Of a DNA stretch of 64,000 nt, positions 17,623 through 19,360 are shown one piece after another. A program made the translations under genes and the position numbers. Source of the DNA: Opitutia bacterium ISCC 52 (lineage in GTDB: Bacteria; Verrucomicrobiota; Verrucomicrobiia; Opitutales; UBA2995); the NCBI GenBank assembly GCA_014529675.2, contig CP076040.1, forward strand, positions 4,111,894-4,175,893, given 5' to 3'. The notes beneath the pieces were generated by a model. It did no database searches, was not told where the DNA came from, and saw nothing but the letters and a program-made list of their open reading frames with translations. Positions within the stretch are counted from its first letter, which is position 1. Every line of letters begins with the position of its first letter.

Positions 17623-18072
17623 ATGAAATGCCCACGCTGTTCGTCCACCGACATCAAGGTGATCGACTCCCGGGTTGCCAAAGAAGGCAACTCCATACGT
17701 CGGCGTCGGGAGTGCATCCAATGCGGCCACCGTTTTAATACGATCGAAGAAATCCTTCACGAGGGGTTGATGGTATTAAAAAGTGATGGGCGAAGCGAAG
17801 AATTTGACAGGACCAAGATTTTTAACGGGATTCGTCGTGCAACCGAAAAGCTCCCCGTCGACATCGAGCAGATCAACCTGCTGGTGAACGATGTGATTGA
17901 AGAGCTGATGGAGGAATACGACTACGAGATTCCCAGCCGAGCGATTGGTGAGAACATCATGTTTCGACTCAAGAAGATTGACCAGATTGCCTACGTCCGC
18001 TTCGCCTGCGTCTACAAAGACTTTCGCGATATCAACGAGCTCATGCAGGACATTTCCAACTTAAACACCTGA
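17623..18072 (+). CDS. nrdR: Transcriptional repressor NrdR
   Basis: ATP/dATP-sensing repressor of ribonucleotide reductase genes. The 149-residue product has an N-terminal zinc ribbon (Cys3, Cys6, Cys31, Cys34) and an ATP-cone domain from about residue 49. SRVAKEGNSIRRRRECIQCGHRF-like residues 16-38 are the family signature, given here only as a position range with key residues C31 and C34. Length is typical. No ribonucleotide reductase gene lies nearby, so it would act in trans. An unknown gene follows after 5 bases. Confidence 0.95.
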   Translation: MKCPRCSSTDIKVIDSRVAKEGNSIRRRRECIQCGHRFNTIEEILHEGLMVLKSDGRSEEFDRTKIFNGIRRATEKLPVDIEQINLLVNDVIEELMEEYDYEIPSRAIGENIMFRLKKIDQIAYVRFACVYKDFRDINELMQDISNLNT

Positions 18073-18077
18073 CACGC

Positions 18078-18560
18078 GTGAAGGCTGATCAAAGGGACCA
18101 AATCACCCGCCTCCATCTACTCAACACGCTTTTCCCGTTGTTGACTGGGGAAGACCTTTACCTGGCCAAACAAATAGAGCACACCATTAACTTCGCCGCT
18201 ACTGGAAATCCCGAACAAGCCGGAGACACGGAAGACTTCAACGACGCCCTGATTCAACTTCTGGAGAAGTATTTAACCCAGGACCAAAATTTCGGTTTCT
18301 TTCACTGGGAAGCCGCCACCCAAGATTGCGGCTGGGATCCGCTTTGGGCGCGGGAAGAAATTATCACAGGCCTCAAACAAGTAGCTGGTTTTAAGAAAGC
18401 CATGTTCTTTGGCACCGGGCTGAGAGCCGCGATACAAGGTCAGCAGCTCAGCTGGACCCCCAAGCTGGATCAGGAATACGAAGAGGCGGTAGCATTTGTA
18501 AGGGACCTTGCCGCATACTGGTCGACCAAAAACTCGCAGCTCACAGTCGTATTATTTTAG
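18078..18560 (+). CDS. Uncharacterised protein downstream of nrdR
   Basis: I do not recognise this 160-residue protein. It starts with GTG five bases after the nrdR stop, which suggests co-transcription. It is soluble-looking, mildly acidic, mainly helical, with no signal peptide, membrane helix or cysteine pair. Its tryptophan-rich middle (FHWEAATQDCGWDPLWAREE, about residues 75-95) is distinctive. Tight linkage to nrdR suggests but does not prove a link to nucleotide metabolism. The left inverted repeat of the GxxExxY unit begins 6 bases after its stop. Confidence 0.6.
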   Translation: MKADQRDQITRLHLLNTLFPLLTGEDLYLAKQIEHTINFAATGNPEQAGDTEDFNDALIQLLEKYLTQDQNFGFFHWEAATQDCGWDPLWAREEIITGLKQVAGFKKAMFFGTGLRAAIQGQQLSWTPKLDQEYEEAVAFVRDLAAYWSTKNSQLTVVLF

Positions 18561-18566
18561 GAAGAA

Positions 18567-18596
18567 AACCGCAGATGGACACAGATGAACACAAAT
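18567..18596 (+). repeat. Left 30-bp inverted repeat of the GxxExxY unit
   Basis: This 30-bp sequence matches the reverse complement of 18966-18995 at 27 of 30 positions. It contains the start of the GxxExxY reading frame, so the repeat itself encodes the N-terminal MDTDEHK. Confidence 0.85.
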
Positions 18597-18966
18597 CTGA
18601 TGATCTGCTTCGTGATGAATCTTACCAGTTGATTGGCTTCGCAATGAAGTTACTAAATGAGATTGGGAGCGGATTTCACGAAAAAGTTTATGAGAATGGG
18701 TTGGTTGTAGACATGAAGAAAAATTCCATTCCCTACGATCAACAGACAAACTATCCCATCGTGTACGAGGAAGTGGAATAGGACGATTCATCCCAGATTT
18801 AGTGGTATTCAATCAGATAATTATTGATACAAAAACTATAGATCGAATTACTGATAGGGAAAGAGGCCAGATGCTGAACTACTTAAAAGTGACTGGCCTC
18901 AACCTCGGCCTAATAATCAATTTCAAGCATGCAAAACTCGAATTTGAAAGAATTGTTCGTTCTTAA
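18575..18966 (+). pseudogene. GxxExxY-family protein (PDDEXK_3-like), frameshifted
   Basis: The first 68 codons give a GxxExxY-type N-terminus: ESYQLIGFAMKLLNEIGSGF, then the name motif in GSGFHEKVYENGL. The frame stops at TAG (18779-18781), but the next frame continues the family without a gap from GRFIPDLVV (18781 on) through LNYLKVTGLNLGLIINF to a TAA at 18966. A net -1 shift near 18778 therefore breaks the gene. The family is related to PD-(D/E)XK nucleases and its role is unknown. The whole gene is bounded by 30-bp inverted repeats, unlike its housekeeping neighbours. Confidence 0.85.
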
Positions 18967-18995
18967 TTTGCGTTTATCTGTGTTCATCTGCGGTT
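18966..18995 (-). repeat. Right 30-bp inverted repeat of the GxxExxY unit
   Basis: Starts at the last base of the GxxExxY stop codon. Its reverse complement matches the left copy at 27 of 30 positions (core CCGCAGATG.ACACAGAT.AAC). The two copies bound a unit of 429 bp. Confidence 0.85.
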
Positions 18996-19015: not shown

Positions 19016-19360
19016 ATGCCAGAACCAACCCTATTCACTAAAATCATCAATGGAGATATCCCGGGTAACTTCGAGCACGAGGACGATCTCTGCGTTGCCA
19101 TTCGAGATATCGATCCTCAAGCCCCGGTCCATATCCTTGTGATTCCTAAAAAGCCGATTGTTCGCACGGCCCTGGCCGAAGACGAAGACCAAGCCGTACT
19201 TGGGCATTTGCTTCTGACCGCTAGAGACGTGGCCAAGAAGGTCGGATTGGAGGATGGCTTTCGTATCGTAATCAACAATGGCCGCCATGGAGGTGAAGCC
19301 GTGCCCCATCTACATGTTCATCTTCTGGGTGGACGCCAAATGAGTTGGCCTCCAGGTTGA
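19016..19360 (+). CDS. HIT-family (HINT-type) nucleotide-binding hydrolase
   Basis: Small histidine-triad protein of 114 residues that would hydrolyse purine nucleoside phosphoramidates. It has the N-terminal FTKIINGDIP typical of the HINT branch, an HILVIPKKP strand and the triad HLHVHLL (His98, His100, His102). The C-terminus GGRQMSWPPG is also typical of bacterial HINT proteins. The ATG lies 21 bases after the right repeat of the GxxExxY unit, so any native promoter must lie within or beyond that unit. A symporter gene follows after 6 bases. Confidence 0.93.
   Translation: MPEPTLFTKIINGDIPGNFEHEDDLCVAIRDIDPQAPVHILVIPKKPIVRTALAEDEDQAVLGHLLLTARDVAKKVGLEDGFRIVINNGRHGGEAVPHLHVHLLGGRQMSWPPG

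Follow-up and report, generated by a model that had tools for sequence, protein, structure and literature searches.

An element type with a RecB/Cas4-like nuclease gene between inverted arms, probably forming a REPIN-RAYT-like system run by a different enzyme

The 64-kb stretch of DNA analysed here (the window) contains, between an nrdR-linked gene and a gene of the HIT family, a dead and decayed member of a widespread element type in which one GxxExxY gene lies between inverted terminal repeats (arms). As far as the papers searched go, this element type is of an undescribed kind, and it occurs in many bacterial phyla and some archaea. Our preferred explanation, to which we assign a probability of roughly 0.6, is a system that resembles REPIN-RAYT but is operated by a different enzyme, the binding, cutting and driving role of that enzyme being inferred without any experiment.

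The arms of the window unit, which the first-pass annotation had described as 30-bp inverted repeats matching at 27 of 30 positions, held up in an exact recount and a shuffle control: they lie at 18567-18596 and 18966-18995, are 90% complementary and are separated by 369 nt, and the arm 30-mer has no further site in the window at three or fewer mismatches (0 expected from dinucleotide shuffles). Three 10-bp units, AACCGCAGAT-GGACACAGAT-GAACACAAAT, can be read directly in each arm of the window unit. The unit and its neighbours are laid out as follows:

17623..18072, + strand: nrdR-like gene, a 149-aa ORF with a zinc-ribbon start (MKCPRCSS), which opens the host operon
18078..18560, + strand: upstream host gene, 160 aa, without a family match; orthologues in 8/8 genomes of the family
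18567..18596, + strand: left terminal repeat, three 10-bp units; holds the ATG of the gene
18575..18781, + strand: GxxExxY pseudogene, 5' part (TIGR04256 positions 2-54, 47 bits; PF13366); ends with TAG
18781..18966, + strand: GxxExxY pseudogene, 3' part (TIGR04256 positions 60-116, 65 bits; PF13366); in another frame
18966..18995, - strand: right terminal repeat, inverted, 27/30 identity to the left arm
19016..19360, + strand: downstream host gene of the HIT family (PF01230, E=2e-26)

Open reading frames and profile matches identify the nrdR-linked and HIT genes as the neighbours, just as they had originally been named; the left arm starts 6 bp past the stop of the upstream gene, and 20 bp lie between the right arm and the HIT gene. 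The ATG at 18575 falls within the left arm, in agreement with the earlier remark that this repeat encodes the first residues of the protein, and the assignment to GxxExxY/PDDEXK_3 is upheld by both halves of the gene, which exceed the family cut-offs for TIGR04256 (47 and 65 bits against 35) and PF13366 (43 and 58 bits against 22). The first-pass annotation was thus right to place a GxxExxY gene between the arms, but overlooked a TAG stop codon at 18779-18781 and a change of frame that break it. The PF13366/TIGR04256 gene is the only one in the window unit, in which we found neither a DDE transposase nor a Y1 (HUH) domain match, and a comparison with Rfam gave no match in this region.

All eight genomes of the family have the nrdR-linked gene. 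At the nrdR-HIT site one relative (G007) has an element with arms and a stop within the gene, another (G005) a remnant with arms and an internal deletion, and a third (G003) hardly more than the remains of the arms; in a genome of the sister genus (G002) the nrdR-linked and HIT genes are 2 bp apart and the element is absent, and the site is likewise empty in G006, which belongs to the genus of the window's genome. Comparison of this site among relatives therefore shows one insertion common to several species, each with a decaying version of it, and the window element is, as judged from these site states, an old insertion shared by several species of its genus. The presence of the gene at this locus in relatives without repeats would have spoken against a cassette, but the relatives have an armed element or remnant or else an empty site.

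Arms also accompany GxxExxY genes elsewhere. The window's genome has about 10 GxxExxY loci, most of them with flanking inverted repeats whose sequence is specific to the locus. When inverted repeats were sought in the 220-bp flanks of 74 loci of the phylum (Verrucomicrobiota in the wide sense), 81% of the loci reached a score of at least 30, compared to 2.3% when flanks of different loci were paired (mismatched flanks) and 0.7% in shifted windows. Flanking repeats were present at 61% of 75 named loci versus 0.2% of shifted windows in a sample drawn from many bacterial phyla (including Acidobacteria, Planctomycetes, Chloroflexi, Bacteroidota, Proteobacteria, Cyanobacteria and Nitrospirae) and from archaea such as Methanosarcinales. 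A gene-blind scan for inverted repeats over 790 kb yielded 77 pairs around a GxxExxY gene and only 16 other pairs spanning 250-800 bp, most of these with like arms. By this comparison, arms and GxxExxY gene form one unit. As most such genes are flanked, the reading of the window unit as a cassette with its own nuclease-like gene, which a lack of association between repeats and GxxExxY genes elsewhere would have refuted, is now supported over far more genomes; it needs the qualification that the window copy is broken and old, and that it is part of a larger system including gene-less hairpins.

The arms usually consist of about three 8-10-bp units, each locus having its own arm sequence, and an 8-10-bp period is detectable in 88 of 100 arms. 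They often begin with TTAACC, TTCACC or similar, end with (T)TMACC or similar and do not have a GTAG tag. At three loci (L047, L052 and L124) an identical insertion (for example CCGCTTCGCT) occurs in both arms of the same element, as if one arm were copied onto the other.

Arm similarity grows with protein identity (Mantel rho 0.46, permutation p 0.001), and the hemB-hemL junction of one genus allows this to be followed at a single site. Six species have an element with CACTAAT-type arms at this junction and others one with CGCTAAT-type arms, and further states of the site are an empty junction or an 85-bp mini version. Locus L210 (genome G129) and locus L232 (G161) have flanks that are 93% identical, whereas their proteins are only 64% identical and their arm types differ at both ends; conversely, between G129 and G166 the flanks are 88% and the proteins 92% identical and the arms are of one type. 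The like flanks and unlike arms and proteins of L210 and L232 therefore indicate that the arms were replaced together with the gene, in one block. Between species the left arm at this junction is 97.5% identical, compared to 85% for hemB, 84% for hemL and 73% for the element body, and the dN/dS of the GxxExxY gene is 0.12-0.14 for recent copies and 0.04 for orthologues; such comparison shows arms and protein alike to be under purifying selection. In G158 and G160 (loci L234 and L246) a gene with a RelE-like end takes the place of the element, and the hemB-hemL junction is therefore a hot spot for different inserts.

Traces of movement were found at several further loci. The copies L065 and L071 lie 2.3 kb apart and are 95% identical, L066 and L073 are 87% identical, and in both pairs the likeness stops at the arm edges. 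L014 and L078 occupy one site in two species but differ in the orientation of the element between its arms, which is inverted, the gatA-gatB site is empty or has 60-70-bp hairpins with other arm types, and at L241 (G082) a CACTGAT-armed element is nested in the reading frame of a CGCTAAT-armed one whose right part is lost. Orthologous sites are thus either empty or hairpin-only, or they hold an element that may be inverted, nested or replaced by one of another type, and it is this comparison, resting on sequence alone, that shows the unit to move as a block, to invert, to be lost and to be refilled. The absence of a target-site duplication claimed for the window unit extends to 59 elements, at whose outer ends there was no excess of 3-9-bp direct repeats. 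No empty junction could be obtained at base level: the gatA-gatB, yqgF-truA and lolD-lolC sites are clearly empty in some genomes, but their flanks are too diverged. The flank-joining test for insertion into reading frames met with very many open frames in GC-rich DNA. Within co-directional operons 54 elements are in sense and 8 in antisense orientation (p 2e-9), at a median distance of 6 bp from the upstream stop, a bias for which targeting and survival both remain possible. GxxExxY elements are nearly absent from plasmids and phages: tblastn gave 8 plasmid records and no match among phages, and viral contigs contributed a single locus. RAYTs likewise have been reported not to be seen on plasmids (PMC3116915, PMC8049555). 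In Chrysochromulina parva virus CpV-BQ1, a giant virus of algae, the genes annotated for replication and repair include one for a GxxExxY protein (PMC12085832).

Pairs of arms without a gene, about 60-125 bp long, share genomes with GxxExxY elements. Such hairpins occur in the window's genome (L010/L011 and L003, 102 and 170 bp) and at the gatA-gatB junction of G161, G167 and G169, and G125 and G063 have many of them, for which the folding energy ranges from -40 to -73 kcal/mol. Counted as exact matches, CACRGAG-type double units number 23.4 on average (median 9) in the 69 genomes that have a GxxExxY gene, compared to 0.95 (median 0) in the 76 that lack one (Mann-Whitney p 2e-14, for one arm type and uncorrected for shared ancestry); the means for a reversed control pattern are 2.4 and 0.45, respectively. 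Three genomes (G078, G118 and G127) have at least five CACRGAG-type repeats and no detected GxxExxY gene, for which gene loss or incomplete assembly is a reading that can be offered. Intrinsic terminators were considered and are disfavoured, as the outgoing strands end in A runs and not in T runs.

The GxxExxY protein has the residues G, E22, D62, E72-x-K74, Q86 and Y90 invariant across 29 relatives, an E, D, ExK, QxxxY layout, which is that of RecB/Cas4-type nucleases. Its predicted structure (pLDDT 95.8) has as top structural match 4ic1 (SSO0001, a Cas4-type nuclease; VIA Z 9.7, rmsd 3.4 over 97 residues), and lower-ranking matches include archaeal Hjc. Foldseek alone gave nothing under 0.001 with this model, and a PDB profile search by sequence gave no match. 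By predicted fold and residues GxxExxY is a minimal RecB/Cas4-like PD-(D/E)XK nuclease, its nuclease activity being inferred.

In the mechanism that we propose, an element of some 440-500 bp, in which terminal inverted repeats (TIRs) of tandem 8-10-bp units enclose a single small gene for a RecB/Cas4-like nuclease, would encode a low-copy nuclease that recognises its own arms and assists in copying or moving its own element as well as the hairpins. The cut would probably fall at the arms, perhaps when these are folded as single strands, and the joining step would be left to host repair or replication; the window copy is a dead member inserted between the nrdR-linked and the HIT gene. The mobility follows from comparison, whereas the role of the nuclease in it is inferred, as are its binding to the tandem units, its cutting of the arms, its driving of movement and the completion of the reaction by host functions. 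Several points weigh against our explanation: binding and cutting of the arms have no experiment behind them, neither a target-site duplication nor an empty junction exact to the base was obtained, three genomes have the repeats and no detected gene, and the repeat counts concern one arm type and are uncorrected for ancestry. In addition, a simple transposon would not usually be so scarce on plasmids and phages (RAYTs, however, are reported to show this too), and the strong selection in place could reflect a cellular function unrelated to movement.

An unlikely alternative is that arms and hairpins owe their movement to another enzyme encoded elsewhere, of the Y1/RAYT type or some other transposase, and that the GxxExxY gene is merely cargo. 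RAYT-like genes enclosed by TIRs (TIRtrons) have been published, as have families of TIR repeats (PMC3733652), and the window's genome does have Y1_Tnp genes, but these lie elsewhere and without this arm type; moreover, nearly all gene-sized units hold one gene family, and arm type tracks the GxxExxY protein, which is not expected of cargo. We give still less credit to the arms acting in RNA, as a long stem that they form around the ORF in the operon transcript, which undergoes processing, by RNase III for instance, or regulates the ORF and so makes insertion inside operons harmless, with movement being incidental. The co-directional placement in operons (54 versus 8) would suit such a role, as would the folding of an intact element with its arms paired (z = -5.3), except that every inverted repeat would fold so; tandem units, distant gene-less hairpins, block replacement at one site and the co-variation of arms and nuclease would all be left unexplained.

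It is improbable to a like degree that the unit serves selfish addiction or defence, the nuclease being toxic or directed against invaders, the arms being operator or protection sites, and the selection stemming from that role. The purifying selection in place, the small size of the nuclease, the RelE-type gene that one hot spot has in other species and the Cas4-like matches obtained with PADLOC can be cited in its favour, but these matches are only weak (E 0.01-0.04), the element has no partner gene, and mobile hairpins with matching arms are not predicted by such a role. That the arms are due to chance, or are ordinary intergenic repeats beside a housekeeping gene, has almost no probability left: nothing was found in support, and the shuffles (0 expected) and the mismatched-flank and shifted controls (0.2-2.3% against 61-81%) refute it, with empty and refilled sites also speaking against it.

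The preferred explanation, a REPIN-RAYT-like system with a different enzyme, takes its name from REP doublets, which fold into hairpins, and their REP-associated tyrosine transposases (PMC3116915, PMC8049555). In both systems the enzyme gene is of low copy number and lies close to its own repeats; both also have inverted doublets without a gene that form hairpins, enzyme and repeat types that change together, vertical inheritance with selection, near absence from plasmids and repeats that are more numerous where the gene is present. However, the RAYT is an HUH/Y1 tyrosine transposase, whereas GxxExxY is a PD-(D/E)XK nuclease without an HUH domain match; the arms are tandem 8-10-bp units rather than GTAG-tagged palindromes; and near-identical GxxExxY copies occur at different places, while RAYTs are reported not to be self-copying. 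TIRtrons/TIRYT (PMC3733652) similarly have one enzyme gene between TIRs that also form dispersed families, often as dimers, but their enzyme is unrelated and their shared TIR motif, GGGGWSAS, was not seen in GxxExxY arms. The fold and the catalytic E, D, ExK, QxxxY layout are shared with Cas4, RecB-type and lambda-exonuclease proteins (SSO0001, 4ic1), but unlike Cas4, GxxExxY is a single short domain without Fe-S cluster extensions and sits in a TIR unit, not in a CRISPR locus.

Insertion sequences and MITEs combine an autonomous TIR unit with short gene-less derivatives. The GxxExxY system likewise comprises a TIR unit with a gene and short derivatives lacking it, but has no DDE, Y1 or serine transposase and no detected target-site duplication, and it is under strong selection in place, at operon junctions. 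The gene itself is a member of known families (TIGR04256, GxxExxY; PF13366, PDDEXK_3), which only two papers in the literature searched name, without any repeat or element context; the arm sequences were not found in the bacterial papers searched, and there we found no description of PDDEXK elements with TIRs, the nearest being the REP/TIR papers (subscription journals and preprints were outside the scope). What is new, as far as these searches reach, is the enzyme-plus-arms system, whose layout is like that of known repeat systems but which fails defining features of each one tested.

We lean, by a little more than even odds, towards elements and hairpins forming a new class of bacterial and archaeal mobile system, in which a minimal Cas4/RecB-like nuclease, rather than any known transposase, recognises the tandem-unit arms and propagates both; this would explain ubiquitous orphan repeats such as ACCACAGAGRCACAGAG and ACAGGATTNACAGGAT in environmental genomes. 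For GxxExxY, a family of unknown function that about half of the genomes sampled from the phylum contain and that extends to many other phyla, there is now a testable role, the proposed one being the enzyme of a repeat system, and the short orphan repeats of environmental genomes, where they are common, acquire an origin. Should the nuclease move the arms, this would be DNA mobility by a RecB/Cas4-type nuclease, which bears on the relation of Cas4-like enzymes to mobile elements, and evolution in parallel with REPIN-RAYT via an unrelated enzyme would make the reason for the persistence of such hairpins directly testable.

Other repeats were seen near some of these loci. At L210:7900-8053 (G129:C1) a 150-bp repeat with ends GGGAGTGTTTTCAAACCC has inserted into, or directly beside, another GxxExxY gene, which is broken; it has at least 12 more copies in G129 (86-99% identity) and diverged copies in sister species, and looks like an unrelated, recently active MITE, as far as its copies can tell. 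Genome G000, which also has Y1_Tnp genes, contains palindromic doublets GTAGCACAGGCATCTTGCCTGTGT (L219:18463-18604 and L227:18828-18891) that look like GTAG-tagged REPs, a resemblance in sequence only, as well as a further inverted repeat family, AGGGCAAGAGCGTCCTCGCTCTGCC, at L221:19925-19995 and L217:13774-13985, which is unrelated to the GxxExxY arms.
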